This document shows, piece by piece, positions 46,822 through 64,000 of a stretch of DNA of 64,000 bases. The notes under the pieces were generated by a model, which made no database searches, was not told the DNA's origin, and was given only the letters and a program-made list of their open reading frames with translations. The position numbers were made by a program, and so were the translations under genes. The DNA is from Pontiellaceae bacterium B1224 (GTDB lineage: Bacteria; Verrucomicrobiota; Kiritimatiellia; Kiritimatiellales; Pontiellaceae): the NCBI GenBank assembly GCA_029432815.1, contig JAROBA010000029.1, positions 1-64,000 on the forward strand. The letters are read 5' to 3'. Each line of letters begins with the position of its first letter. Positions within the stretch are counted from its first letter, which is position 1.

Positions 46822-49002
46822 CTACAACTCTACTCCGTACGGAATTTCGACGCGCATACGGTAGTAGCGGGGAGAGGAGGGGGCTGAACTTTCGAAGTGC
46901 TCTACCTCTCCTGTACCGGCATAACCTCCAAGCAATCTCCAATCAACCGGACTCAGCGAATCGGTATATTCGATAACGTAGATTCGCCCATACGCAGTGG
47001 AGCTGAAGATTTGGACAGTGCCGTTGCCGGAAGCCGACACGGTGAAGTTAAGGTGTGAAGCGGGATTGGTCGGATCGGAGCCCATCCGGAATTCATCCAA
47101 ATTCGTATAGCCGTCGTTGTCTGAATCGAGCGAGGCAACCGCACCTTCCTCCGATGCGAAGTAGGTTTGCTCCCAATCATTCGGCAGCTCATCGCCATCC
47201 GTATCCGCTCTCGTTTTCCAGACAAAAGTCGTCGTGCCGACAGCGGACTGAACCTTAACCCGATAGTAGCGGTTGGTTCCCATCAGATTATCTTCATATT
47301 CCTCGACAAGACCGGTGCCGCTGAAAACCGCCAGCGTAGACCAGTCGGACGGCGTCAGCGAATCGGTGTATTCGATGGTATAGGTACGCCCAACGATCGT
47401 CGAACACGAAACCACCACAGCACCTGTAGTGGACGTTGTGTCGACGGACAGGTTGGGCTGCGACAGCCCATTTGTCGGGTCCGTACCGAGTATAAATTCC
47501 TGCGCGGCGGTATAACCGTCGCCATCCGTATCAGCTGTAGCGATCATGCCGGTTTCAGATCCCGAGAATTTTAATTCCCAGTCGTTCGGTAGGTCGTCCT
47601 GATCGTTATCGGCAATCCAGTTCCAGACAATGCTCGATTCGGGATCGCTCAAAAAAACCAGGCCGGTGGATGCGGAGCTTCCTTCCGCAGGAACAGAGCC
47701 GCTACCCGTCCAGCCCTTCATGACGTAGACCGTGTTGGAAACGATCACAACGGGATCAACCGAACAAGTGACTGTAGATCCCCACGCATATACATGGAAT
47801 CCGGCAGCAGGCGCAGGAGTTCCGGCCTGGGAGATCACGGACAGGGTGTAATCCCTTGCGTCTACATAAGTAACAACTGTCCCGGATACAGAAACCCCCG
47901 CTTTACGCACAGTTCGAAAACCATCGAAGACGGTCGCTCTGTCTGGGAATTGCAGAAAAATGCTGCCACAACGCAAGTATTCGGCACCATCGATCCAACT
48001 TCCGTCATGCATGTAGCGAGAACCGTCGACGACATCCTCATCCCAGCACCATTCAGCAACATTTCCTGAGACATCGTAAAGTCCATATCCATTGGGAGCA
48101 AAGGTACCTGCCGGACTCGTGCCGGGCCAATCCGTGCTGAAGTCTGGATGGAAACCTCGTGTGGAACTCGTATCGTAGTTGTATTCAGAAGAACTGAAAT
48201 AGTTGGCCTCGTTATGGGTAATCTGATTCCCCCAGGCAAAACGGCTTGCTACCCCGCCGCGGGCGGCATATTCCCATTCTTCGCCAGTCGGCAGTCGGTA
48301 GCCGGTTGCCCCGGCATCCACATCGGGAATCAGAACGCCACTTCTGTAGGTTGTCCCGCCAACGCTGTAACACGGTTCAATTCCTTCCATCTCGCTGCGG
48401 GCATTGCACCATTTCACACAGTCGTACCAATTGACGGTTGTTACGGGATGGTTGTTCGAGATCGCGAACCCCTCATGGTTGAAATCGTAACCGTTTGTCA
48501 CGGCCCAAATGTAAACCGAATCCCATACATGTTTCGTAATTTCGGTTTCATCCATGAAGAGGTTATTGGCAAGGGTTAGGCTGAAAGCACCAAAATCCGG
48601 ATCTGTTCCAGCGGTTGTTCCGGCAGGAACAAGTACGGTTCCATCCATTGGAACCGGAGTAATGTCCTGCCCATCGTCAGCCACCACCAGAAACTTGAGC
48701 CCGGCCGTATGCTGCCCGTACCAGTCGGCCCCGGCATCCCAGACGATGCTCTTTCCGGTTCCGGTTACAACCCCCGCTCCGACATCCCCGGAAAGCGCCG
48801 ACAGCGGCACCTCATCTTCACCATCGAACGCTCTCAGCGTGATGGTCACTGCGCCTGCGAAATCGCTTGAAACATCATACCCGACGGTAACGGTTTTAGT
48901 GCCGGTAACCTGAGCCGCCACCGTGTTTTCAACGGTCACCACCGCCTGAACCGACGAACCGAGAACCGGTATCAACCCTATCAGCATCCATTTAATTTTC
49001 AT
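46822..49002 (-). CDS. Secreted SUMF1-fold protein with calcium-loop repeats
   Basis: 726 residues with a signal peptide (KWMLIGLIPVLGSSVQA) and a SUMF1/FGE-type domain (about 140-380; NHPVTTVNWYDCVKWCNARS, GYRLPTGEEWEYAARGG, DGFRTVRKA). Where catalytic FGEs have two cysteines after GGS, this protein has DGSWIDGAEYLRC, so the cofactor cysteines seem absent and enzyme activity is doubtful. Two calcium-binding loops (DTDGDGYTAAQEF and DSDNDGYTNLDEF, each with a G-x-DPTN) follow. Two copies of the C-terminal module occur, the last ending RYYRMRVE. It is the last gene of the surface operon, 11 bases after the subtilase gene. Confidence 0.88.
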   Translation of the reverse strand: MKIKWMLIGLIPVLGSSVQAVVTVENTVAAQVTGTKTVTVGYDVSSDFAGAVTITLRAFDGEDEVPLSALSGDVGAGVVTGTGKSIVWDAGADWYGQHTAGLKFLVVADDGQDITPVPMDGTVLVPAGTTAGTDPDFGAFSLTLANNLFMDETEITKHVWDSVYIWAVTNGYDFNHEGFAISNNHPVTTVNWYDCVKWCNARSEMEGIEPCYSVGGTTYRSGVLIPDVDAGATGYRLPTGEEWEYAARGGVASRFAWGNQITHNEANYFSSSEYNYDTSSTRGFHPDFSTDWPGTSPAGTFAPNGYGLYDVSGNVAEWCWDEDVVDGSRYMHDGSWIDGAEYLRCGSIFLQFPDRATVFDGFRTVRKAGVSVSGTVVTYVDARDYTLSVISQAGTPAPAAGFHVYAWGSTVTCSVDPVVIVSNTVYVMKGWTGSGSVPAEGSSASTGLVFLSDPESSIVWNWIADNDQDDLPNDWELKFSGSETGMIATADTDGDGYTAAQEFILGTDPTNGLSQPNLSVDTTSTTGAVVVSCSTIVGRTYTIEYTDSLTPSDWSTLAVFSGTGLVEEYEDNLMGTNRYYRVKVQSAVGTTTFVWKTRADTDGDELPNDWEQTYFASEEGAVASLDSDNDGYTNLDEFRMGSDPTNPASHLNFTVSASGNGTVQIFSSTAYGRIYVIEYTDSLSPVDWRLLGGYAGTGEVEHFESSAPSSPRYYRMRVEIPYGVEL

Positions 49003-49013
49003 CGCTTTACCTC

Positions 49014-50426
49014 TCAGAATTCCAGTTCTCCTACCACCCTGTAAAATGCGGCACCGTCTCGCGTGTCGATTGCAAACTCAATCATCGGTCCATTGGTGTT
49101 CGATACGCCTGCAACCTTAGTCCAAACCGCCTGGTTCAGATTAGAGGCACTCATCAGTGTATACGCCATGCCCGGATGATAATCCGTCGAAACCTTCAGT
49201 CCGGAATCCGCAGTTTCAAATTTCTGCTGTCCCAGATCGGGCACATTGCCCGCCGCAACCGCAGCCAGCCAAGCCGCCGCCCCGTAATTCACACGTCCCC
49301 AGCCAAAATAAGGATCCCGCCCCAACGGGCCGAGATCAACCGCAGTCGCCTTCAGCACAGCGAGCGCATGTTCCGCTGAAAGCGATGGATCAATCGAAAA
49401 CAGCGAGGCCAGGATCCCGGCCACCAGCGGGGCCGCAAAGCTCGTACCGCTGCCCGTTGCATAGCCCGATGCAGTCGTTGAATAAACCTGATATCCGGGA
49501 GCGGCAAAGTCGATATGCGAGCCGTAATGCGACTGAAGAGTATCGTCGTTATCGGTCATCGATACCGCCACGATATAGGGTTGATTGGTATAATCCAGAT
49601 AGCCGGCACCGTTCACGCCCGCCATCACCACAACACCATCGGTTTCAACGCGGTGGTATTCCGCCGCAAGGTTCAGCGTGGGACTGTCCGCTCCCGCCCA
49701 ACTCAGATTCACCACGCGAATATCGTTATCGGCCGCCCAACGGATCGCGGCATCCATATATATGATATCTGACTCCGAACCGATGGCGTTGTTAACCGGT
49801 ACCAGAGTACAGTTTCCAGCACCGGCAATACCGGTTGCATTATTCACCACCCCTGCCGCCAGACCCGCCGAAATCGAGGCATGATTATCGTCTCCGGAAT
49901 AGACCGCCACTTCATTCACCACATCCCATCCGCTCACGGAATTCGCCGCCAGGTCCGGATGAAAAAGATTAAAGGGCAGATCCACAATAGCCACCTTCAC
50001 GCTTGAAGTACCCGTTCCCCACTCCCATGCATCGGCACTCCCGATCACATCGTGGTGCCACTGGTATCCCAGCAATGGATCGGACGGTATATACTGCCGC
50101 TGCATCCGGCGGTTAGGCTCGGCAAACACCACATCGCTCCGGGCCGCCACCAGCTCAACCGCCTGGACCATATCGTCTGCCGCCACAGTCAACGCCAGCA
50201 CCTGTCCCTGCCCCCGGAACTTAACCAGCACTTCCCCGGTCGTCACATCCGTATCGGCGGCCCGCACCCGGGCGCTCTGGCGCCTGGCACGCCGCAGTTC
50301 CGGAAGCCCTTGCCCCAGCACAGCCAGGTCAGACCGATCCAACTCGGAAAGGCGCAATGCCCCCGCATCGGCCCAGGCCAGCAGGCCGAACAGCACAAAC
50401 ACACAACTGCGATGCCATCGTCTCAT
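49014..50426 (-). CDS. Secreted subtilisin-like serine protease (S8)
   Basis: 470 residues from the ATG at 50426, which overlaps the stop of the upstream gene (TAATG); readings further upstream lie inside that gene. Signal peptide SCVFVLFGLLAWADAGA. The triad is Asp in VAIVDLPFNLFHPDL, His in DDNHASISAGLAAG (an atypical HGTH box) and Ser in GSGTSFAAPLVAG, with the oxyanion Asn in MAGVNGAG. A propeptide-like segment lies before the catalytic domain and a C-terminal module ends AAFYRVVGELEF. It could mature the giant proteins encoded with it; that is inference from the operon. Confidence 0.92.
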   Translation of the reverse strand: MRRWHRSCVFVLFGLLAWADAGALRLSELDRSDLAVLGQGLPELRRARRQSARVRAADTDVTTGEVLVKFRGQGQVLALTVAADDMVQAVELVAARSDVVFAEPNRRMQRQYIPSDPLLGYQWHHDVIGSADAWEWGTGTSSVKVAIVDLPFNLFHPDLAANSVSGWDVVNEVAVYSGDDNHASISAGLAAGVVNNATGIAGAGNCTLVPVNNAIGSESDIIYMDAAIRWAADNDIRVVNLSWAGADSPTLNLAAEYHRVETDGVVVMAGVNGAGYLDYTNQPYIVAVSMTDNDDTLQSHYGSHIDFAAPGYQVYSTTASGYATGSGTSFAAPLVAGILASLFSIDPSLSAEHALAVLKATAVDLGPLGRDPYFGWGRVNYGAAAWLAAVAAGNVPDLGQQKFETADSGLKVSTDYHPGMAYTLMSASNLNQAVWTKVAGVSNTNGPMIEFAIDTRDGAAFYRVVGELEF

Positions 50427-52042
50427 TACCTTTCCACGGATATCCTGTAAAATGCAGGCAAGCCTGCCGGTGCAGTGCGTTCCCGATAGGTGTTGGCCGG
50501 CGGTGTGGCCTGAATTTCCCCGGAAACTTGCCAGAACCCTTCCTGCAGATTGACCGATCTCCAGACCTTGTACGTCCGGTTCGAAACACTCGGCCAGACC
50601 AGTGTGGCCGAACTTCCGATATCGGAGGTGAAACTGACCACAAGCGCATCGACCCTGTTGGTAGGCGACGTGCCGGCCACCCATTCTTCCCATGTGAGCA
50701 TGCCATCGTTGTCGTGATCAATCAGTCCGGCAGTTTCCCAGGCGTTGGTAAAGCCGTTCTCATAGAGCCAGCTTTGCGGCACTCCGTTGCCCGTCGTATT
50801 TTCGGAAAACAGCGCAAAGATCGAACGCGGCTGGGTCATTGGAACATCCAGCTCGTCGCCGTACAGCGTGGTTCCGATCACGTCGCCCGTCCATTGATCG
50901 ATATGATAAAACAGATCCGGCAGTGCCGTCAGAGTGATGACCGATCCGGCATCCACCCATTGATCCGGCTCGTCCACCTGGCCGAAAGCACCAGCGCCCG
51001 TATCCAGCCAGTATTTAGTATTCCACTGCCAGGTCAGCACCATGCTGTTGGTCATCTCAAGCTCAACCATATCCGTTGCGCCCGTTGTGGTACCTTCAAG
51101 CCCCGCCAGCGACCAGCCGGCCAGCGCATGCTGCGTTAATCCGTCGTTGTACAAGCTGTTGGTAACCGAACAACTGACCAGCGTTCCATAGGCGTTCGTG
51201 TACAGTCCCGGCGGCGGAACCGACAGTCCGGCGATTGAACGGATATCCAGAATTATCAGGTTGCCGATGAAACCCGTATCAGCCATCGCCACCTCAGTCA
51301 GGTTTGAAAATACAACATTGAACGAAGCAATCAGCTCCGCCTGATCCGAAGGCCCATAGAGGGTAATATCAAATCCGGTGATGCCGCTCTGATCCATGTT
51401 CACGTGGGTGGCTTCCGAAAAAAGACTGCTCAAATCAAAGTAGACCTCGTTGCCTGAAACGCCGTCGCCAACAAACGAAGCAATCGGCCCGGCGGCACCT
51501 GTGGCCGTCAGTACCCCCACCGCCCCATCGGCCGTCGGGGCGAATATGGAAGGATCCAGCTGAAGCAGCAGCTGCCGCGACTCCAGCACAAAATCATTTT
51601 CCAGTTCCGTGGTCACGGCCAACAAGCCGTTCGTCGGCCAGACCGCTCCACCGTTTTCGTTGGAGGCATGCACCCGGCAATAGTAGGTCGTCAGCGGTTC
51701 GCATCCGCTAATCCGGTGCAGCGCCAGCCCCTTGGCATCCGCTCCGTCCTGAATCGCGCGCATGTCCGCACGCCGGAAATAGTTTGTCGTCTGCGACGGG
51801 TCGCCCGTATAGACCGGCGACACTTCAGTGCCGACCACGCCCATCAGATTCGAAGTTCCCGCCGCATCGGCAAAGATCTCCACCCAGCTCCCGGCAGACT
51901 CTGTGGTCCGCACAAAAAGATCAAACTGCGAAGGCGTTGCATTCACCGCCATGCACTGATCAATTTCCGGTGCCGCCCCGGCACCAGCTGCCAACCATAG
52001 GGCGACCCCGAAAATCGGCAATCTTATTGGCTGCTTATTCAT
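50426..52042 (-). CDS. Exported beta-rich protein of unknown function
   Basis: 538 residues with signal peptide (LPIFGVALWLAAGAGAAP). An N-terminal fibronectin-III-like domain (about 20-145) is followed by a lectin- or cohesin-like beta-rich region with no family I can name. A repeat-type segment (GSVITLTALPDLFYHIDQW) resembles the InlB B-repeat. A calcium-type loop, DHDNDGMLTWEEWVAG, and the C-terminal module ending PAFYRISVER follow. It overlaps the rhodanese gene by eight bases and the subtilase start by one base, so it is translationally tied to both. Confidence 0.82.
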   Translation of the reverse strand: MNKQPIRLPIFGVALWLAAGAGAAPEIDQCMAVNATPSQFDLFVRTTESAGSWVEIFADAAGTSNLMGVVGTEVSPVYTGDPSQTTNYFRRADMRAIQDGADAKGLALHRISGCEPLTTYYCRVHASNENGGAVWPTNGLLAVTTELENDFVLESRQLLLQLDPSIFAPTADGAVGVLTATGAAGPIASFVGDGVSGNEVYFDLSSLFSEATHVNMDQSGITGFDITLYGPSDQAELIASFNVVFSNLTEVAMADTGFIGNLIILDIRSIAGLSVPPPGLYTNAYGTLVSCSVTNSLYNDGLTQHALAGWSLAGLEGTTTGATDMVELEMTNSMVLTWQWNTKYWLDTGAGAFGQVDEPDQWVDAGSVITLTALPDLFYHIDQWTGDVIGTTLYGDELDVPMTQPRSIFALFSENTTGNGVPQSWLYENGFTNAWETAGLIDHDNDGMLTWEEWVAGTSPTNRVDALVVSFTSDIGSSATLVWPSVSNRTYKVWRSVNLQEGFWQVSGEIQATPPANTYRERTAPAGLPAFYRISVER

Positions 52043-52874
52043 CGTCTTCCTCCACCGTCTGCGCCCCCATGCCCATCCGCTTCAGTCCGGGAGCTCCGTC
52101 GCGCTCGATGATCCGTTCACCGCCGGCGAGGATCACCACCCGGCGGAAACCGTTCGCCCGCAGCATGCGCGCGATCTTCTCGGCCTCTCCGTCACCGTTA
52201 TCAATAAGCACCATCACCGGCACCTTTTCCGGCTCAGACGACATGCGGCTTACTCCTTCGCTCCCACCGGTACGTCGGGCCACGGCATCGACCTCGAACG
52301 GCGACTTCACCACCGGTCGTCCCGGAAACTTTTCGTCCAGCGCAGTCAGCGTTGGCGCATCAGTTGTTATCCCCTGCCGGGTCACCCTCCCGGGTGCTGA
52401 TTCTTCCGGCTTACGCAGATCCACCAGCACCACATCATCCGCGCTGAGGTCGGAAATATCCTGATAAGTAATGTAGTCGAGCTGTTCCGGCTTGAAACCG
52501 ACAGGCTCGGTGGTGGTGCCTTTATCCATTTCCCAGGCGGCATAACCCCCGTCGAGCGCCTCGGCATCGATGCCGCCTTTTTCGTTCAGCATCCGCACAG
52601 CGTAGGCAACATCCTCCGTCCCGAAACCTCGGCCATAGACCACCACACGGCCCAGCGCCGGCAGTTTTTTCCGGGCAACCACCCGCTGCGGAATATTGAT
52701 CGCGTTCGGGATGTGCCCAGCCCTGTAAAAGTTCGACTCGCGGATATCCACCACCGTGATCTTTACGCCCTGATCCATCAGCGCATTAAGTTCAGCCGTC
52801 GTGACCGCCCCTGCGCCCGACACAGCACAACATGCCGCCAGGACCATCCATTTTCGCATTCCTGTTTTCATCAT
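52035..52874 (-). CDS. Exported tandem rhodanese-fold protein lacking catalytic cysteines
   Basis: 279 residues from the ATG at 52874, overlapping the upstream stop (ATGA) with GGAG before it. Signal peptide WMVLAACCAVSGAGA. Domain 1 (about 25-125) has the rhodanese folds VVDIRESNFYRAGHIPNAIN and VVVYGRGFGTEDVAYAVRML, where the active loop reads GRGFGT with no Cys. Domain 2 (about 130-270) reads VMVLIDNGDGEAEKIARML, also without Cys. Both domains are thus probably binding modules and not sulfurtransferases. A role in the surface operon is unknown. Confidence 0.85.
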   Translation of the reverse strand: MMKTGMRKWMVLAACCAVSGAGAVTTAELNALMDQGVKITVVDIRESNFYRAGHIPNAINIPQRVVARKKLPALGRVVVYGRGFGTEDVAYAVRMLNEKGGIDAEALDGGYAAWEMDKGTTTEPVGFKPEQLDYITYQDISDLSADDVVLVDLRKPEESAPGRVTRQGITTDAPTLTALDEKFPGRPVVKSPFEVDAVARRTGGSEGVSRMSSEPEKVPVMVLIDNGDGEAEKIARMLRANGFRRVVILAGGERIIERDGAPGLKRMGMGAQTVEEDDE

Positions 52875-55800
52875 TCCGGTCTCCAATCGTTGACAGCCTG
52901 CTGCATGTCGACCAGCAGCACAGCCGAAGCGGGAATCGCAAAGTCATAGCCGAGCAGCTGCCCCTGCCGAACCTCGGCAGCGAACCAGCGCCCTGAAGCG
53001 GGATCGAGCATGCGCAGTGCCCGAACCTTGTCGAGTCCCAGTCCACGCATCAGCCGGTGGGCCGTATACGGTTGCGGAAAATCCGTCAGACTCACCACAT
53101 TCACGCCCACCTGCAGATCCATGGAGTCCAGCGTGGATACCCCTATGTCGGCCACATAGGCATCGCCGAAACGTACCCAGAGGAAATCGCCTTCCACCAG
53201 CGGGAAGTTATCGCCGGTCGCGCCGCCGCTCCAGCTGGCCGTCTCCTGCACAAGGTTCGGCACCACCGAGGTAAAGCGGCTGATTTCCGTTACGCCGACC
53301 GCACTGTTCCAGCGCTCGAGCAACGCGAAGGCGTCGGCGGCCTGATCGGCCACCGATGCGGTCACCGGCACCGCGTTCATGTTGCGGAAGACAGCATGAA
53401 TGGCCGGCAGACGGGCGCTTCTGACTTCACCGGCCTCAAGCCACGACAGCACGCGGCCATTGACCGACTGGTGGCTCTTCACCCCTTCCGAGCGGGTCAA
53501 CGGGATAGCCGCAAGATTCGAGAGATGGATCAGCCGCAAGTTAAAGAGGCCTGTTCCGAGCGAATCCTCCTGACAGCAGACCCAGCCGCCATCGAGGAAT
53601 GGGAACGCCTCATTTTCCGTCGTGTCGGTAATGCGAATTTCACGATCCCGCAGCAGATCATAGCCATAAAGCTCCACCTGCGAGTGTCGGTTGTCCTGCC
53701 AGACGATCCATTGATTCATCAGTGCGGGGTTATACTGCCCGTAGATGTTATCGGTGACACGGAACCAGTTGCCCCGCTCCAGATTCATGTAATAGATCTC
53801 GCCCGGTCCCGAATCGCGCCAGTCTGCCCAGACTACGCGCCCGGCCTCCACGTCGGGATAAAGCTGATCTTCAATCCCCGGAAGCAGTTCAGTATCCACT
53901 CCGCCTTCGGCAAGGTTGATCGCATGCAGCTGCCACGGATCGTCTGGACTGCTGGTCGACTTCGACTGATAGACGATCCACGGCCAGTCGATGTCCGGAT
54001 TGATCTCGTCGTTACCGAGCGACGAAGTGACCTGCACCACCGCACCGGTGTTGTCGAGATCGGCCATATAGAGATCCCAGCTTCCGTCGCTGCGGCGGCC
54101 CTGCCAGACGGCATATTGGCCATCCGTTTTCGGATTCTTCTGTGTGAAGCTGCTTGCAGTCAGCTGACGCGGCACAGTATTGGTCGAAAGAAGGTCGCGG
54201 GCAAAGATTTCCGGCGAACCGTCGCTCTGGTCCTGCCAGACGATCCAGCGTCCACGGGCATGCGGCGTGGCCGGTCCTCGGTCAGCAGCCGCCACCGTTT
54301 CCCCCTCCGCGAAGAGATCTTCCACCTCAACCAGCATCGTAGCGAAGTTCGTCTGCGACAGTTCATTCACGAGTGTCACGCGGACAGTATACCAGCCCGG
54401 AAGCACGTCCGAGCCGCTCTCGTTCTTGCCGTCCCAGACCCAATCCGTGGTGGCCGACGCCACATTGGAGAAAGCGGCCGAACGCACCAGATCGGCTGCG
54501 GTGTAGTTATGGCCATAGAGCGGATCAGCAATCCAGCTGACCGTATGATACTCATTGCTACCTTCCATCGAACCGCCGACCTGTCCGCGCACATCAACCG
54601 AATGCAGACCGGGCACCAGTTTATCAACCGAGAATGGAACCGCGACGGATTCAATGGCGCGGAAATACCCCTCATCGATCCGCCAGCGGTAGTCGGTCAC
54701 ACCGGATCCGCCCACAGACATCGCAGCATAATCGAGCCGTGTCGGGCTGGCCGGCACACCGAACACCTGCACCGGGTAGACCGAAGAATCTACTTCCCAG
54801 GAAACACTGAGCGCATCGGCTTCGACTGGATAACTTCCATAGCGCGGCCGACCGAGAATGTCCACCGTGTGAGAGCCGTTGGCCAGACCGGAGATCGCAA
54901 TCGGGTCCGAAACCATCTGCTGCGACGACCAAGCTCCGCCGTCGACCCGGTATTTGTAATAATCGACATACTCGCCACCTACATAGAGCGTGGCCGAATC
55001 GAGCGCGCTGGGCGAACAGGGGGCATTGCTGACCGTTGTCCAGGGCACAATGCCACGGAAGATATCCACCTGCGCATCGGTTGCGAGTGCACTGCCGGAA
55101 GCCGCGAAGGAGATACGGGTCGAACCGGGACGGATCGACAGCGCATCTCCGGTCAGCAGGACGCTTTCGACATCCTTGCTGAACTCCTGCAGGTTGGGTG
55201 GCTCGCCGTTCACGATGATGCGTACTTCATTGGTATTTTCGACATTACCCTCCGAATCAGAAGCAAAGAAGCGAACCGAGTATTCGCCGGCTTCCCTGAT
55301 CCAGAACGGATAGGCCGGCTGGAATGGCGCGTTCGTGATGGAGTAAACAATACTCACCGGGCTGTCATCGGTCGAAAGGAAGAAGATCTGCGTATCGTCG
55401 GTGATATAGTGGTTGGTGCCGACGCCGGCCTCGATGCCTGCAAATTCGATGGTCGTAATCGGCGGATCGGTGTCTGCCGGGACACCGCTGTAGGTTACGG
55501 TGTAGCTGTTGGTGCCGAGATTGCAAAGGTCGAAGATGTTGAGATAGCTCAACCGCGCGTTGTCTGATTCGCGGTAGCGGACATTCGTCCAATAGTTATT
55601 TTCGTTGATCTCCTTGCCGTCGCTGCGCACCACCGACTCGATCGGCAGCTTGGCCTGCTTCGGATCGTCGAGACGCATGTAGCACCAGTCGGTGCGGTCG
55701 GAATCAACCTCCACGAGAGCCTGCCCCGGCCCCGGCGGTGTTCCCAGCGCCGCGTTCTCAATATGGTTGACCGGCAGGATCTGCCCTTCACTTTCGTAGA

Positions 55801-56830
55801 GCGCATCGGGGATCATGTTTTCGTCCCGATCCGTATCGGCCAGAAAGTCTAAAATTTCGTCACGCCCGGCCTGATCGTTGAGCACCTCTTTCGCTATGAA
55901 ATGCGCCACCAGGTTCGTGATCAGCGAGGTCTCCTCTCCGCCGAATTCGGGTGCGTGCGTGTAGGATGCATTGAATTCGACAAACTCGCCGGAGAGTGTC
56001 GTGATCATATCCCATGACGCCTTGCGGGCGGTACCCGGTTCCAGATCGCCGATGTTGACCGTCAGGCTCGTGCGATCGAGCGGCGAGTCCATTACCCGCA
56101 CGCCTAGCAGACGCGGGACCAGCAGCAGATGCTGAACATTTTCAACAATCCGCGGCTGCTCTGAACGAATCATCACGTTGCGGGCCGGACCATAACCGAC
56201 ATTCCGCACCAGCACGCCGAGAATGAACGGAATCGGAGCTTCAACGGTTTCGGTGAACGGATCGTCGCCCTGAACATCGCGCGGCTGGAAATAGGTGATA
56301 TCCAGCAGCGGTTGCGGCTGCACGGTGATGATGTCCGGCACGGCAAAAAGCACGTCGTCCGGAAAATATTCGCCCTGAAATTTAGCCGAAAGGTTACAGC
56401 CCACACGATAGCGTTTACCAGCGGGGTCCTGCCCGCCCGCTCCGGGTTTCGGCACGATGAACCACCGCACCACCGCCTTCTGGGTCGGAGCAATGATCCC
56501 CTGCCCGTTTACGTTGTTGATATTTTCCATCTCCGGGGCGCGGACAAAGAACCAGTCCGAAGCATTGTTTTCTTCGCTGTCGCCGGCGTTCGGATCGGTA
56601 AATGTGAGCGACGCACTGAAGTCGGTAATTGAATCAACCCCGTCATTGTTGGTCACCTCCAGCGTCGCCAGGAAGCCGATGCGCTCCATCGAAAGTTCCT
56701 GAAGAATTTCAATTTTCACCCGAGAGCAAACGCCCTGAAACTGCTGTTGCGCCATGGCAGATACTGAAAGCAGCAACGCCGCTGCCAGCACACCGCCGCG
56801 CACAAACCCAACCGGATCTTTTGTTTTCAT
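52871..56830 (-). CDS. Large exported CARDB/propeller protein
   Basis: About 1319 residues from ATG at 56830 (GGGA upstream), giving a signal peptide (GGVLAAALLLSVSAMAQQ). The N-terminal third includes CARDB-like beta-sandwich domains (ITDFSASLTFTDPNAGDSEE and VRNVGYGPARNVMIRS). Middle parts resemble Ig-like and CBM-like domains. A six- or seven-bladed beta-propeller (GRWIVWQDQSDGSPEIFARD, GQYAVWQGRRSDGSWDLYMA and similar repeats, DNA about 53.4-54.3 kb) sits before a final domain of about 130 residues. It begins 32 bases after the giant Hint protein. The function is unknown but it is surely extracytoplasmic. Confidence 0.85.
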   Translation of the reverse strand: MKTKDPVGFVRGGVLAAALLLSVSAMAQQQFQGVCSRVKIEILQELSMERIGFLATLEVTNNDGVDSITDFSASLTFTDPNAGDSEENNASDWFFVRAPEMENINNVNGQGIIAPTQKAVVRWFIVPKPGAGGQDPAGKRYRVGCNLSAKFQGEYFPDDVLFAVPDIITVQPQPLLDITYFQPRDVQGDDPFTETVEAPIPFILGVLVRNVGYGPARNVMIRSEQPRIVENVQHLLLVPRLLGVRVMDSPLDRTSLTVNIGDLEPGTARKASWDMITTLSGEFVEFNASYTHAPEFGGEETSLITNLVAHFIAKEVLNDQAGRDEILDFLADTDRDENMIPDALYESEGQILPVNHIENAALGTPPGPGQALVEVDSDRTDWCYMRLDDPKQAKLPIESVVRSDGKEINENNYWTNVRYRESDNARLSYLNIFDLCNLGTNSYTVTYSGVPADTDPPITTIEFAGIEAGVGTNHYITDDTQIFFLSTDDSPVSIVYSITNAPFQPAYPFWIREAGEYSVRFFASDSEGNVENTNEVRIIVNGEPPNLQEFSKDVESVLLTGDALSIRPGSTRISFAASGSALATDAQVDIFRGIVPWTTVSNAPCSPSALDSATLYVGGEYVDYYKYRVDGGAWSSQQMVSDPIAISGLANGSHTVDILGRPRYGSYPVEADALSVSWEVDSSVYPVQVFGVPASPTRLDYAAMSVGGSGVTDYRWRIDEGYFRAIESVAVPFSVDKLVPGLHSVDVRGQVGGSMEGSNEYHTVSWIADPLYGHNYTAADLVRSAAFSNVASATTDWVWDGKNESGSDVLPGWYTVRVTLVNELSQTNFATMLVEVEDLFAEGETVAAADRGPATPHARGRWIVWQDQSDGSPEIFARDLLSTNTVPRQLTASSFTQKNPKTDGQYAVWQGRRSDGSWDLYMADLDNTGAVVQVTSSLGNDEINPDIDWPWIVYQSKSTSSPDDPWQLHAINLAEGGVDTELLPGIEDQLYPDVEAGRVVWADWRDSGPGEIYYMNLERGNWFRVTDNIYGQYNPALMNQWIVWQDNRHSQVELYGYDLLRDREIRITDTTENEAFPFLDGGWVCCQEDSLGTGLFNLRLIHLSNLAAIPLTRSEGVKSHQSVNGRVLSWLEAGEVRSARLPAIHAVFRNMNAVPVTASVADQAADAFALLERWNSAVGVTEISRFTSVVPNLVQETASWSGGATGDNFPLVEGDFLWVRFGDAYVADIGVSTLDSMDLQVGVNVVSLTDFPQPYTAHRLMRGLGLDKVRALRMLDPASGRWFAAEVRQGQLLGYDFAIPASAVLLVDMQQAVNDWRPE

Positions 56831-56862
56831 CGTTCTAGTCCCATGGTTGTCAAAATACCGGA

Positions 56863-59800
56863 TCATGGCGCCACCTCCATGTTCTTCACCTCTTTGTCGG
56901 GCGGTGTCCACCAGCCGCACTGGTCATGTACCAGGATTCCTTCCGCATACATGGCGACATCGCCGCGAAGCCGGATCGAAACCAAAGGCCGTTCGCCTTT
57001 GGAGGCTTCGACGGAAACCACACGGAGCCGCTGATCAGCATCCGTGAGAACCGCATCGCCCGCCCGCACGTTTTGCGCAGCGACCCAGCCCTGGCCATCG
57101 ATCCATATCAGATGCTCGGAGGTAACCGACAGCGTCTGCTCCGGATCGTCCTCGAATCCGAGCGTAATCCAGTTCATTCCATTGCCATGAATCACATCCG
57201 CCACTTCCGCAGTCTCATGATCTTCCACGCCGCTGCGAACCACATCGCCCACGGCGAGTTGACTCGCCTCGAGCTGTCGACCGTCGGCCAGCAGCACCAG
57301 CGTCTCGGGAGCAAGGCAAACCGGGCCGCCGGTGCCGTAGCCCGTTCCGCCGGAGTTGCTCGGCCCGGAATAGTTGCCGCCACCGCCGTCGCCACCGCCC
57401 TCAAAGGCACAGCCAATGAGGACTGCCAGTTCGAGGACGCCCGGAGGCAGGGGTGAACCTTTCCACTCGTGGATCTTCAGTAGCACGCTTACAGCCGCGT
57501 TGGCCGTGGCCGCATCCAGCGAGTTAACGCACTGGTATCCTCCGGCAAACCGATTGATCAGGTTTTCCAGATTCTTGCCGAAGTTATAGATGGCACCCAG
57601 CATGTCGCCGACACAATTGGCATACGCACTCTGCCGCTGCGCCTGACTGCCGCCGCCTGCATCGCCATAGTAGGTGACAAGGACCGGGATCTTCACTTCC
57701 TGGAACGGATCGAGCCGTGGCAGATATTCCACCAGCGGAATCATGGAGCCCCAGCTGAACTCCTGACCATCGATCGTCAGATCGTTGAGGGCGATCAGCC
57801 CATGGTTTTTAACCGTGACCATGAAGCGGACCTGGAAGCCCTCATCCACGTCCTCGAAACTCTGCCAGGCTGGCGTAACCACCATGACCGGTGCCGGCAC
57901 GTGGGTCTCGAACGTCTGCTCGATCACGATTTCATAACGGTCGGTAAACGGTACAGGAACCACTGTGAAGTTGACTGTTACAACATTCTTCGTCAGCCGC
58001 GTATCGAGCTCATTAAGCTGGTCGGCCACAATATCAATCGAGCCCGCCTGCGTAGTATGGCCAGGCGCAGTAACCTGCCAGTACCACAGACCTTCCTGAA
58101 GGTTTTCAACCTCCACAATTCCGTTCGGGCCGGTCGCGACCGGATCGTGCTCCGTACCCAGCAGCTGATTGCGCAGCCGCAGGGTTGCGCCCGGCACCGG
58201 AATGCTGAGCGTATTCTGCACGAAGAGCTGCAGATCGCCTTTGTCGGCCGAGCTGACTGTGGCGTAGAGCGGCACGTTGAAGGTTGCCGGATGGTTGGTT
58301 CCGCTGATGACAAACATATCGCTATAGCGATCCAGATCAATCGCCTCCGGTGGAGCAAAGACCACATCGAAGGTGTTCGAGGCCCCCACCGGCAGATCCG
58401 GCAGACGATACGAACCGTCAGCGTCGGGCACGAGCGACGGGTAGATCCAGTCGTGCCCAGCCGCCGGACTCATAGTAACCCCCTTGAAGTCGCGCACGCC
58501 GCGATTGACCACAGTGACTGTTTTTGTGGCCACATGGCCGCGGTTGACCGTGACGTCCACATAGCCCGATTTCGGAGAGACCACATCAATGATCGGCACC
58601 GCTTCCAGCAGTGTCAGGTATCCCGTGAAGGTATCGGCCGCACCTTCTGTCGCCGAGAAGCGGATTTCGACCACCGCATTATCGGGGGCGTCAATATCTG
58701 CGGCCAGCTCGACAGGGAAGGTGACGCGCTCATCCGCACCAATCGTAATATCCGGCGTCCACTGCGGTGTGGCCGTAACGGTTGCAATGTCGATTTCGTT
58801 CGTACCGTCCAAACGGTAGGCACGCACGGTGGCATTGAGTCCGGTCAGCGGTACCGTGCCCGGATTGAGCAGGTTGAGGCTAAACGTGTACGTGTCGTTC
58901 TTCGACATGCGGATATTACCGATACGCGGCAGTACAAACATCCGGTAGACAGAAACCGTGGTCTGATCCAGGCGATCAACCATATCCGGGTGCGCCGCCC
59001 AGAGGGTCAGCTCCCCGGCCACGCCCTGCGGTACGTCATAGGCAAAGGTGTAGGAACCGGTACCGTCTGTGACCACCTCTTCACTCCACTCGTGACTGCC
59101 CAGTGCAAAGCCGATTCGCAGCGGCGTGTCCGGAAGCGGCGTATTGTCGGACCGGCGCAGGGCCTGTCCGGTAATGATAATCTGCTCGTCGTTGGCATAA
59201 CCGCTCTTATCGGTTGAGGAGGTGCCGTAGTATTCCGTCAGCGCCAGTCCCAGCTGGGCCGTGCCGCTGATGGGGCCGGATACCTGTTCGTCAGCCGAAC
59301 CGATCTGATGATAGAGCACTTCCACGCCGCCCTGGACCTTCAGCGAACCGGCACCGGCCAGCGAGACAGGCACCAGTACATCGTTGATCCACAGATCCAG
59401 AGAAGCTCCGGGAGCAATCGTGTAATATCCACGACCGCCCGAAATGGTCACGCCCGGAACCGTTCCCTGGAAATAACCGCGCGAGATCTCCCCGCCGAGT
59501 TCGTTCTTGAGCGATACGTACACATCGCCGGGGGTCGCACCGCTGTCTTTAAACAGGACTACATCCATATCGGCGAAGCCACGGTTGTGGATGCGCGTCT
59601 TGAAGTCGGCCAGCGTCCCGGCAACCGGAGTATTCGTGGTTGTTACACTGACCGTCTGGACCGGCGCTATTGAATCAACAAAGGTGAACAACCGCTGATA
59701 AGTCACCTGTGCACCTGAGGCATTCGGCGTCTGCAACATACGAACACGGACACTCTGCGATGCCGCACCGGCCATCGAAGCCATCGGAACTTCGGAGGCG

Positions 59801-62800
59801 AGTGTTGTATTGGGGGCCACGAAGTTGGTCACGGAGGCCAGCACCGTGGTGACCGGTGCACCGGCATAGGTACGCCGCAGTTCAATAGTCTCAAGCGGGA
59901 AGGATTCCGCCAGCGTTTTGTTCTTAACCGTCGCATTATAGGCATCGAAGTAGCGCAGGATCGGCAGACCGGCACCGGCGGTGTTCACGCCGAGTCCCAG
60001 TTCGAGGCGGTAGACATTCGCCGTGCGGGCGGGGCCCTCCTGACCCAGATTATCCACGCTCTTGAGCGCATACTGCACCAGCGAACTGCCCGTGTAGCTA
60101 CTGTCGAGGAAACTCGTCCCGGTCAGCGGAGCCGTGTTGAGCTTGATGCCATTGCGGTAAAGGTTGACGCCGGCGATAGAGGGATCGCCGAAGGTCCAGC
60201 TCAGAGCAGGTGCCTGGCCATGCTGCATCAGGATTTCGAAGCTCGAAACCGCGGGAACCAGCATCACAAACGAGTTGCTGGTGCTGTAGGCTTCATTACC
60301 CAGCCAGTCGGCCGAAGCCACCGCGTAAACCGAGGTGCCGCGCGGCGGATAGTCGTTAATCGGCGTCGGCACGTAAGGACTGCCGACCTTGGTGCCGTCG
60401 CGATAGACGTTGTAGCGGATGGGAGCTTCGCCTTCCGTCGGTGCCGTCCAGGTGACCTGTACACCGGAAGCCTGCAGCTGCACCACGACGTTGCTCGGTG
60501 TGCCGGGCGCGGTGCGGTCTGAATATTCCGTGTAAACCTGACTGAAGCCGCTCTCGGCGCCGCGGCGGCTGGCCGTGACCGCATAGCGATAGAAGCCATC
60601 CGCAGGCGGCAGGTCTACGACACCGTTGCTCACGATACCATCGGCCACCACGGTGGTCGGGATGCCCGCATCCCCGGGGATACGGTAAAGGCTGTAAGTT
60701 TCGGCGTTGGAGACCGGATACCAGACGAGGTTCACATAACCGCCCTTCACCGCAACCGGGTTGAGCAGGTTGGGCGCGGCCGGCGGCGTTGGAAATGCCG
60801 TGTTATAGATTTCGACCGACTCGCCGGCCGTGATGGTGGTGCCGATGTTGTCGAGCGCATCGACAACCTCCAGATCAAAGTCGCTGAAGCCGCTGCCCAT
60901 CAATGGATTCAGCGAAAGCGTCCCGCTCCAGTTCAAGCCGGCACCGGACATGCCCACAGCGATGGTTGCCCCCGCGGGCGGATCGAATTCAACCTGCGGA
61001 ACCGTGCCGGGTTTCGGCGGTTCCGTGAGGGTGAGATTGACCTGCATCGTCGTATTGCTCAGCACCTGTACCGGTGCCGCCGGAACCGTTTCGATGGAAC
61101 CCGACGGCGGAGTGGTGTCGATCACCAGATCCACACCGCTCGGTGCGCCACTTGAAACATTGCCGTAGATATCGGACGCCGAAACACCCACCTGAGCCAG
61201 ACCGGAGGGCGTCAGACCGGTAATATTGAAAGAGGCTTCATAGGTATTCGGTGCTGTGTTGGATACAACCAGCAGGATCGGGCCGCTGGCACCGTAGGGC
61301 TGTACCAGCAGATCCGGAAGACCGGACAGCGGTTCGTCGGAAGTGAGCACAATACCCACCGGGCCGGGGCCGACCGGAGACGATTTGTTATAACCGATCG
61401 TGAAGGACGGCGGCGAGGTGTCGTAGTCCCCCTCAACGAGGTTGGATAACAGGCTCGGGTTGCCCGCGCCGTCGTAACCCAGTACGCCGAAATAGTAATG
61501 ACCATCGGCGAGATCCAGAATATGGTATTCCGTCGCGTTCACAACACTTCCGGTGTATGCGGCTTCGGATGCAAGAGCGAAGGGCTGGGTATCCCAGTAC
61601 ACCTTGAAGCTTGTAGGAGCTTCACCGCTTCCGGAGAGGCTCCAGGTCAGGCTCAGGCCCTGAAGCGGATCGAAGGTGACCGGATCCAGCAGCACCGCTT
61701 CCGGTGCACCGGTGTCTCGCACCACCGTCCGCGAAGCCGAGGAGGCGCTGCCCAGGCTGTCGAATGCCACGGCCACGAGCACGTTGTTGCCTTCGAACAA
61801 ATCAACCGACAGTGCAAAATCGCCATTCGCGTCTGCCGTGGTTTCGCCCACCACCGCACCGTTACGCAGGAGGCGGATACCGATGAGCGGCTCGGCCGTT
61901 CCTCCGACCGCAACCGAGGACGCCGCCGTAACGATGCCCGGTGCCGGAGAAGTGATCACCGGTACCGGCGGCGGTTCGGGAGAAATGGTTACGTTGGCTT
62001 CACTGACCGTAAAGGCCCCGTGCGTATCGCGTGCCAGGAACTTGACGCGGTGGATACCGCCGACTTCCTCGCGGACATCCCACAGCACATTCATCGTGCC
62101 GGAGTTGGTAGAGGCCATCAGCACATCATCGACATAAAACTCTACTGCGGCAACACCCAGCGGCGAAGTAGCCGCGCAATGTACGAAGATCGGTCGTTCG
62201 ATCACCTGACCTTCGAACAGATCGAACTGTGTGATGGACGGTCCGTCGGTGATGTAGGTAATCGGCACAGCGATCGGCGCGTTGGTTTCACCGTTGACGT
62301 TGCGGTACTGAACATAAAGCGTTTTGTTTCCGCCGCCTTCGGAGAGCAGTACTGCGTTGCTCGAAACAAAGTCCTGGAAGAAAACGGAGCTGAAGGTCGA
62401 GTCTTCGCTGATGCGCATCGACTCAGCGACACGGCAGGCATACTTCATCGGCACTTCGCGTGAACCGACATCGAGATTGCCGTCGTATGTGTCGGCGGCC
62501 GGCGTCAGCAGCGGTTCGGTGGTGAGGAACGGGGCATAGTCAATGTTGCCGACGAGGCCGTTGAACACTTCCGTATTGCTGATGGAACCCCACCATACGC
62601 CGGGCGCGGACATCGTATTGACACCGTTGGCAACGGCGTTGGAGTCGTTGTTCACCACAATCGAGTTTGCGAGAAGCAGTTGCGAGTCTCCGGACTGCTG
62701 AACTCCGACGACATTGAACTGGGCCAGCAGGTTGGTGGTAACCAGCAAGGCATCGCCATCAAGCATCAGACCGGCCGGGGCATTGAAGAGCACCGAAAGG

Positions 62801-64000
62801 GCATCGGTGGCGGGATTGCAGCCATCGACCTGCAGGCCTTCGCCATACATTGTCCAGACATGGGTCATTTCCGAAGCACCTGCGCCCGGACCGAGATAGA
62901 GCCCCGTCCAGTCGCCCGGAGCCGGTGACGCCTGTGCCGACGTCAGCACAATCGGATTGAAGACCGTGCCCAGCGCAGAGAGCGAGCCCTGCTCCACGTA
63001 CAGGCCGGTGCCGGCATGAAAGCGTAGCGTGACGCCAGGTTCAATGGTCAGTACGGCGTTGGATACGACATTGATATCACGGTAGATGTCGTGCACGGCT
63101 GCAGCGGCACCACCAGTTCCGATCGTCAGGTTTTCGGCGATTGTTCCGGCAAACGGATCTTTCCAAAGCACGGTAGTAACAGCGGAGACATACTGGCCGA
63201 GACGGTTGTAGCCGACGACGGCGAAGTAGTGATCGACACTGCGGTCCAGCTCTTCAATGCGAAGCGACTTCTGGCCGGGTGCCAGCGTCGTGTAAGCCGT
63301 CAGCGCAGAAACATCGGTGTAATCGGTCTGCTGCCAGAAGATGTCGAAGCCTTCGAGGCCAAACAGAGTGCTGGTGTCGTAATCGTCCCACGAAAGATCG
63401 ACGCCATCCGCACCCACAGGAGTTGCGGTGACCGCAACCGGCGGAGGAAGCGCACTGTCGACACGCGACACAAGACCGGTAACCACCGGATCGTAGTTAC
63501 CCGCTTCATCAACCGCCGCAACTGCGAGGTAGTAGTCGGTATCGAGTTGAATTTCGCCGATTTCGCCACTGAGGGAAGCGGCACCGAGATAACTGACCGG
63601 CGCAAGACCGGCAACGCTGTTGAACGGGCTGGTACTGCGGAAGAGACGGAAGCCGGCCAGATCGGATGGCGGCGTATAGCCGGTCCACGAAAGCGTGAAC
63701 GATGTCGCATTCGACGAGGCCACGATGAAGACCGGATTATCCGGCGGCGTGGCGTTGACTTCGACCATAGCGGCATTGGTTTCACCAATGATCGCACCAT
63801 AGAGATCAGCGCCCTGTGAAACGAGTACGCCGTAGTCGCCGTCGTCGCCGGCGGCGAACGTGATCGGTTCAAGACGGTAGGTGTCATTATCGGTATAGGT
63901 GGTTCCCCACGTTCCGTTGCTCGATGCGATAAACGTCATCAGCGGGGCGGCTTCGTTGGTGAAGACCACCAGCGGCGGAGTGCCGGGCTGCATGGAGCGG
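56863..64000 (-). CDS. Giant exported Fn3-type protein with C-terminal Hint domain (partial)
   Basis: At least 2376 residues; the frame is open to the window edge, so the N-terminus is missing. Repeated fibronectin-III-like and bacterial Ig-like domains (e.g. WTGYTPPSDLAGFRLFR, SPAPGIVTAASSVAVGG) fill most of it, with a segment of Hyr/CARDB-like repeats (DNA about 57.9-59.3 kb). The last 145 residues form a Hint (hedgehog/intein) domain: N-terminal Cys in GGPVCLAPETLVLLADG, block B TSEHLIWIDGQGW, and ILVHDQCGWW near the end, where the usual HN is HD-Q-C. Only about 18 residues follow. The domain may self-cleave or attach the protein to a nucleophile. It heads the surface operon as far as seen. 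Confidence 0.87.
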   Translation of the reverse strand, partial: RSMQPGTPPLVVFTNEAAPLMTFIASSNGTWGTTYTDNDTYRLEPITFAAGDDGDYGVLVSQGADLYGAIIGETNAAMVEVNATPPDNPVFIVASSNATSFTLSWTGYTPPSDLAGFRLFRSTSPFNSVAGLAPVSYLGAASLSGEIGEIQLDTDYYLAVAAVDEAGNYDPVVTGLVSRVDSALPPPVAVTATPVGADGVDLSWDDYDTSTLFGLEGFDIFWQQTDYTDVSALTAYTTLAPGQKSLRIEELDRSVDHYFAVVGYNRLGQYVSAVTTVLWKDPFAGTIAENLTIGTGGAAAAVHDIYRDINVVSNAVLTIEPGVTLRFHAGTGLYVEQGSLSALGTVFNPIVLTSAQASPAPGDWTGLYLGPGAGASEMTHVWTMYGEGLQVDGCNPATDALSVLFNAPAGLMLDGDALLVTTNLLAQFNVVGVQQSGDSQLLLANSIVVNNDSNAVANGVNTMSAPGVWWGSISNTEVFNGLVGNIDYAPFLTTEPLLTPAADTYDGNLDVGSREVPMKYACRVAESMRISEDSTFSSVFFQDFVSSNAVLLSEGGGNKTLYVQYRNVNGETNAPIAVPITYITDGPSITQFDLFEGQVIERPIFVHCAATSPLGVAAVEFYVDDVLMASTNSGTMNVLWDVREEVGGIHRVKFLARDTHGAFTVSEANVTISPEPPPVPVITSPAPGIVTAASSVAVGGTAEPLIGIRLLRNGAVVGETTADANGDFALSVDLFEGNNVLVAVAFDSLGSASSASRTVVRDTGAPEAVLLDPVTFDPLQGLSLTWSLSGSGEAPTSFKVYWDTQPFALASEAAYTGSVVNATEYHILDLADGHYYFGVLGYDGAGNPSLLSNLVEGDYDTSPPSFTIGYNKSSPVGPGPVGIVLTSDEPLSGLPDLLVQPYGASGPILLVVSNTAPNTYEASFNITGLTPSGLAQVGVSASDIYGNVSSGAPSGVDLVIDTTPPSGSIETVPAAPVQVLSNTTMQVNLTLTEPPKPGTVPQVEFDPPAGATIAVGMSGAGLNWSGTLSLNPLMGSGFSDFDLEVVDALDNIGTTITAGESVEIYNTAFPTPPAAPNLLNPVAVKGGYVNLVWYPVSNAETYSLYRIPGDAGIPTTVVADGIVSNGVVDLPPADGFYRYAVTASRRGAESGFSQVYTEYSDRTAPGTPSNVVVQLQASGVQVTWTAPTEGEAPIRYNVYRDGTKVGSPYVPTPINDYPPRGTSVYAVASADWLGNEAYSTSNSFVMLVPAVSSFEILMQHGQAPALSWTFGDPSIAGVNLYRNGIKLNTAPLTGTSFLDSSYTGSSLVQYALKSVDNLGQEGPARTANVYRLELGLGVNTAGAGLPILRYFDAYNATVKNKTLAESFPLETIELRRTYAGAPVTTVLASVTNFVAPNTTLASEVPMASMAGAASQSVRVRMLQTPNASGAQVTYQRLFTFVDSIAPVQTVSVTTTNTPVAGTLADFKTRIHNRGFADMDVVLFKDSGATPGDVYVSLKNELGGEISRGYFQGTVPGVTISGGRGYYTIAPGASLDLWINDVLVPVSLAGAGSLKVQGGVEVLYHQIGSADEQVSGPISGTAQLGLALTEYYGTSSTDKSGYANDEQIIITGQALRRSDNTPLPDTPLRIGFALGSHEWSEEVVTDGTGSYTFAYDVPQGVAGELTLWAAHPDMVDRLDQTTVSVYRMFVLPRIGNIRMSKNDTYTFSLNLLNPGTVPLTGLNATVRAYRLDGTNEIDIATVTATPQWTPDITIGADERVTFPVELAADIDAPDNAVVEIRFSATEGAADTFTGYLTLLEAVPIIDVVSPKSGYVDVTVNRGHVATKTVTVVNRGVRDFKGVTMSPAAGHDWIYPSLVPDADGSYRLPDLPVGASNTFDVVFAPPEAIDLDRYSDMFVISGTNHPATFNVPLYATVSSADKGDLQLFVQNTLSIPVPGATLRLRNQLLGTEHDPVATGPNGIVEVENLQEGLWYWQVTAPGHTTQAGSIDIVADQLNELDTRLTKNVVTVNFTVVPVPFTDRYEIVIEQTFETHVPAPVMVVTPAWQSFEDVDEGFQVRFMVTVKNHGLIALNDLTIDGQEFSWGSMIPLVEYLPRLDPFQEVKIPVLVTYYGDAGGGSQAQRQSAYANCVGDMLGAIYNFGKNLENLINRFAGGYQCVNSLDAATANAAVSVLLKIHEWKGSPLPPGVLELAVLIGCAFEGGGDGGGGNYSGPSNSGGTGYGTGGPVCLAPETLVLLADGRQLEASQLAVGDVVRSGVEDHETAEVADVIHGNGMNWITLGFEDDPEQTLSVTSEHLIWIDGQGWVAAQNVRAGDAVLTDADQRLRVVSVEASKGERPLVSIRLRGDVAMYAEGILVHDQCGWWTPPDKEVKNMEVAP

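Follow-up and report, generated by a model that had tools for sequence, protein, structure and literature searches.

The window, the whole 64,000-nucleotide stretch of DNA that was analysed, comprises positions 1-64000 of a contig of 80081 bases from the 5.4 Mb genome of Pontiellaceae bacterium B1224. The original prediction had placed a coupled operon of exported proteins at 46822-64000, and direct reading of the joints confirmed six adjacent minus-strand genes there (Table 1), with overlapping or close joints and, as read by eye, a signal-peptide-like stretch opening all six proteins. The ATGA overlap between the propeller and rhodanese genes, the 8-base overlap between the rhodanese and companion genes, the TAATG joining companion to subtilase and the 11-base gap ahead of the SUMF1-fold gene all stood as predicted. 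The predicted 32-base gap between giant and propeller gene corresponds to a later, alternative ATG; an ATGA overlap is preferred at this joint because two genomes of the same genus (G003 and G004) share that start. By consensus matches only, the joints carry no terminator-like pattern, the minus-strand matches fall within coding sequence, and the next terminator-like patterns lie just past the last gene (46719-46771). Pfam recognised Rhodanese (PF00581, E 1e-16), Peptidase_S8 (1e-26) and FGE-sulfatase (1e-29), and a PHROGs search gave no match. Outside the window, a DUF1573-like gene (contig 76391-77356; L025:1629-2627) is divergent from the giant in this genus and sits inside the operon in other families; a second SUMF1-fold gene lies near the start of the giant (contig 78831-79790), and G004 has one as well.

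Table 1. Genes and features of the locus (window positions, unless marked as contig positions).
Feature	Position	Strand	Length	Remarks
Giant, C-terminal part in window	56863-64000	-		stop at 56863
Giant, full gene	contig 56863-76197	-	6444 aa	start outside window, at 76197
Hint domain of giant	56923-57318	-		Cys1 is giant residue 6294; block-B T-x-x-H; block G is VHD, not VHN
Tail after Hint block G	56866-56922	-	19 residues	QCGWWTPPDKEVKNMEVAP; invariant Cys at +2
Propeller protein	52871-56866	-	1331 aa	N-terminal propN, TolB-like propeller, C-terminal module propC
Exported tandem pseudo-rhodanese	52035-52874	-	279 aa	active-loop Cys missing in both domains
Companion protein	50426-52042	-	538 aa	conserved N-terminal region of ~250 aa, InlB-like repeat, TSP3-like end
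Subtilase	49014-50426	-		Asp/His/Ser/Asn retained; lineage-specific addition
SUMF1-fold protein	46822-49002	-		TSP3 repeats; no FGE cysteines; lineage-specific addition

The giant is composed of FG-GAP, LamG, Big_5 and fn3-type domains, followed by a conserved C-terminal stalk of ~2450 residues and the Hint domain. From one family to the next its first ~4000 residues are for the most part exchanged for others, and the last ~2450 are retained. We infer that the giant is a surface or secreted protein whose N-terminal half varies and whose C-terminal stalk is conserved and processed by Hint.

The hallmark of the propeller protein is propN, an N-terminal domain of tandem beta-sandwiches that belongs to no Pfam family; the propeller repeats score over the NCBIfam cut-off for TIGR04275. 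Although the propN model is good (pLDDT 87.6), nothing in the PDB matched it globally (the best TM, by query length, was about 0.17), and for this reason no function is drawn from its fold; a sequence search of the PDB with propN likewise gave nothing significant. In three loci (L106, L113 and L114) the companion protein ends in a further copy of propC, the C-terminal module of the propeller protein. The rhodanese fold is present in the third protein and its catalytic loop cysteine is absent, in agreement with the predicted Cys-less double rhodanese. The loop is altered in both domains of nearly all relatives, including those of the RHS type described below, with L108 and L152 keeping a Cys, and most Hint-type members share a conserved D-x-GDG-x-A motif in the second domain. 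Loss of the Cys loop together with retention of this motif looks like a kept, non-enzymatic role, and a rhodanese that is enzyme-dead yet carries a new conserved motif offers a further handle on the system.

We measured how far this arrangement is conserved by running the propN profile (A1) alone against 84,980 species genomes. The scan yielded 258 relatives, and HMM maps of the best 80 of these 258 identified 39 loci with both propN and propC, a few pairs of which come from the same genome or are near-copies and are not independent. These loci are spread over Kiritimatiellota, Verrucomicrobiota and the delta- and gammaproteobacteria. A Hint-ended giant lies upstream of the propeller gene in 37/37 loci with sequence to judge, the rhodanese follows the propeller gene in 34/34, and the companion is present in order in 30/30. 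Since propN alone served to find the loci, the neighbouring genes are independent evidence, and a gene order kept across families and phyla is beyond chance; the conserved adjacency that the original prediction had offered as its own check was thus found. Pairwise distances among giant stalk, Hint, propN, propC, rhodanese and companion are correlated (r 0.64-0.93), and none of 499 permutations was as high. The family is nonetheless patchy, since the profile matches only 30 of the 346 genomes of the class. Several delta-type loci carry an extra ~700-850 bases between rhodanese and companion, which in L106 and L119 form an ORF of ~200-250 residues. Two cassettes (L087 and L098) occur in a metagenome-assembled genome titled Akkermansia muciniphila, a name that may be wrong.

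The six-gene system as originally drawn did not survive this comparison. All six genes and the divergent DUF1573-like gene are found in G003 and G004, and G014 has five, SUMF1 being absent. In another family, G034 has the four genes from giant to companion, after which come a DUF1573 gene and a repeat protein, and G162, G163 and G173 share this arrangement; all four lack both the subtilase and SUMF1. A six-gene unit was therefore rejected: genes 1-4 are a strictly conserved cassette, and the subtilase and SUMF1-fold genes were added in particular lineages. The subtilase has an intact S8 Asp/His/Ser triad in all four genomes for which full alignments were made. The predicted Cys-less SUMF1 fold was borne out in three genomes, where GSW[IL]xGA stands at the putative position of the FGE Cys motif and both active-site cysteines are absent. 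A protease or folding helper recurs after the companion, encoded by different genes: S8 in L098 (and in L095, just below cut-off), trypsin in L089 and cyclophilin in L088. We found no description of the cassette in the open literature, and on that footing this four-gene unit, in the same order across several bacterial phyla, is undescribed. For the study of giant exported proteins in Verrucomicrobiota-like bacteria it provides a system that is defined, conserved and open to test.

We next considered the Hint domain. The giant alone gave a weak Hint match in Pfam, which the family alignment made strong. The family profile matched Hint and BIL chains in the PDB with E values of 3e-19 to 1e-17 (including 8w20, BIL 2lwy and BUBL BIL2), and the Pfam families PT-HINT, Vint, Hint and Hint_2 match 29-33 of the 35 Hint members, with PT-HINT matching 32. 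The confident AlphaFold model (pLDDT 89.5) was matched by Foldseek to inteins, among them gp41-1, to BILs and to Hedgehog. Profile, model and Foldseek thus agree on the Hint-ended giant of the original prediction. Across the alignment, Cys1 and the block-B His are invariant (both 35/35), the block-B Thr is present in 33/35, and one Trp and the Cys two residues past block G (35/35) are also invariant. The terminal Asn, by contrast, occurs in none of the 35, its position being taken by D, Q, H or E. For comparison, 36 further Hint segments from the phylum, several of them tandem copies from one protein, were checked by text pattern, and 32 have His-Asn at the end. Cys1 and block-B T-x-x-H of canonical inteins and type-A BILs are present and their C-terminal His-Asn is missing, and the Hint fold is devoid of intein block G, as in type-B BIL and Hog-like domains. 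A splicing intein was rejected on the basis of this block G. That the members have all lost specifically the Asn and retained the rest suggests selection to keep only the first half-reaction, and these residues predict that the domain should form a thioester and cut or activate, not splice. The self-processing giant that had been suggested is in this sense upheld, in narrower form. In ~900-residue proteins of the same class (L182, L175, L176 and L180), 2-3 Hint domains stand back to back, joined at VHNKG-C, and the proteins end in Gly/Ser-rich tails.

In a tree of propN, the Hint type falls on one side of a single branch (39 rows; SH-aLRT support 100, quick method), flanked by two sister groups. 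One consists of RHS/transglutaminase loci: in G052 and G082 transglutaminase and rhodanese genes lie next door, and in G052 the homologous stalk continues into RHS repeats. In the two loci checked from Luteimonas (L139) and Eleftheria (L163), type II secretion system (T2SS) genes follow propN, the RHS giant, a small ORF, propN and the T2SS gene set standing side by side; in L163 a rhodanese and a transglutaminase close the array. No T2SS genes were found beside the Hint-type loci inspected, and the window's own genome has seven secretins. The second sister group (C1 and C4 of G004, and G021) holds stalk and propN in one chain of 3.9-5.3 thousand residues, which argues that the two work together.

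Taken together, these findings lead us to a model that we consider somewhat better than an even bet, in which the cassette would be one of the subfamilies of a secretion-linked system that serves exported giants in many phyla. The giant would cross the inner membrane by Sec, its lineage-variable N-terminal half serving as the displayed or active part and its stalk handling export and attachment. Using Cys1 and the block-B Thr/His, Hint would convert the peptide bond on the N-terminal side of Cys6294 to a thioester; since there is no Asn that could cyclise, splicing would not follow. An outside nucleophile (a surface acceptor, amine, thiol or water) would resolve the thioester, so that the giant is cut from Hint and either freed or attached to an acceptor, in the manner of Hedgehog or type-B intein-like domains. 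We guess from fold and conservation that the stalk has three non-catalytic partners in the envelope, namely the propeller protein, the pseudo-rhodanese and the companion. The subtilase and SUMF1-fold protein would be local additions, the former perhaps trimming the giant further. The operon may in this way build and mature a surface structure, as originally proposed. A bolder version, which we hold only tentatively, would make this a bacterial equivalent of Hedgehog processing. The thioester would transfer the C-terminus of the giant to an envelope acceptor, giving sortase-free covalent anchoring, and the docking complex would consist of the propeller protein, the pseudo-rhodanese and the companion.

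The cassette could instead be the leftover of an RHS/Hint toxin, the giant being a toxin-less relative of Hint-type polymorphic toxins whose Hint cuts off only its own C-terminal remnant. Hint is the usual releasing domain ahead of the toxin in such proteins (PMC3482391), Hint members match PT-HINT, and the sister clade has RHS repeats, with T2SS genes in the two checked loci. However, the sequence past block G is a short tail in which no toxin domain was recognised by eye (19 residues in the window, up to ~60 elsewhere), variability is N-terminal rather than C-terminal, and none of the 35 members departs from the residues of one half-reaction, which argues that Hint is not in decay; we regard this origin as possible but rather unlikely. 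The same invariance, together with a Hint giant in 37/37 loci, makes it improbable that the locus is an ordinary large adhesin operon with Hint as idle decoration, even though common adhesin modules make up most of the giant's domains.

Equally hard to sustain is split-protein assembly, whereby the Hint thioester would join giant to propeller protein and restore the single chain of the fused sister group. The fused giants do hold the same two domains in the same order, and the two genes overlap by ATGA. One locus (L111:2-13924) even reads giant, Hint and propeller protein in one frame, either because a stop codon was lost or because the sequence contains an error; it was discarded as proof of a functional fusion because a signal peptide lies mid-frame. 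The propeller protein thus has its own signal peptide even there, and its mature form would begin with Gln (QQQF), not Cys, making ligation through an N-terminal Cys unlikely.

Our preferred reading, a giant cut or activated by Hint without splicing, can be set beside several known systems. The RHS/transglutaminase/rhodanese loci (G052, L139 and L163), for which no paper naming them was found in the open literature, share with the cassette a homologous giant stalk, a propN protein and a Cys-less rhodanese. They differ in that RHS repeats replace Hint, transglutaminase replaces the companion and propC is absent; L139 and L163 further differ from the Hint-type loci inspected in their adjacent T2SS genes. 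The cassette thereby ties Verrucomicrobiota-like giants to RHS-repeat loci of Proteobacteria. Like PT-HINT polymorphic toxins (PF07591; PMC3482391), the giant has a long exported stalk and then a Hint of the PT-HINT kind, but it lacks the Asn and any recognised toxin domain past Hint, and its variable part is N-terminal whereas in the toxins the C-terminus varies (PMC3482391). With type-B BILs and the Hedgehog Hog/Hint domain it shares the Hint fold, Cys1 and the block-B His, and loss of intein block G. Type-B BILs have no block-G similarity and cleave without splicing (PMC4031507), and Hedgehog performs the N-S acyl shift only (PMC7664689). The cassette Hint is set apart from both by its x-x-x-C-G terminus with an invariant Cys at +2 and by its fixed four-gene context, and from Hog in that no sterol-recognition region was identified in it. 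As in Hedgehog, the domain stands at the C-terminus of a secreted protein, and if it transfers its giant, this would be Hedgehog-like ligation at the bacterial surface.
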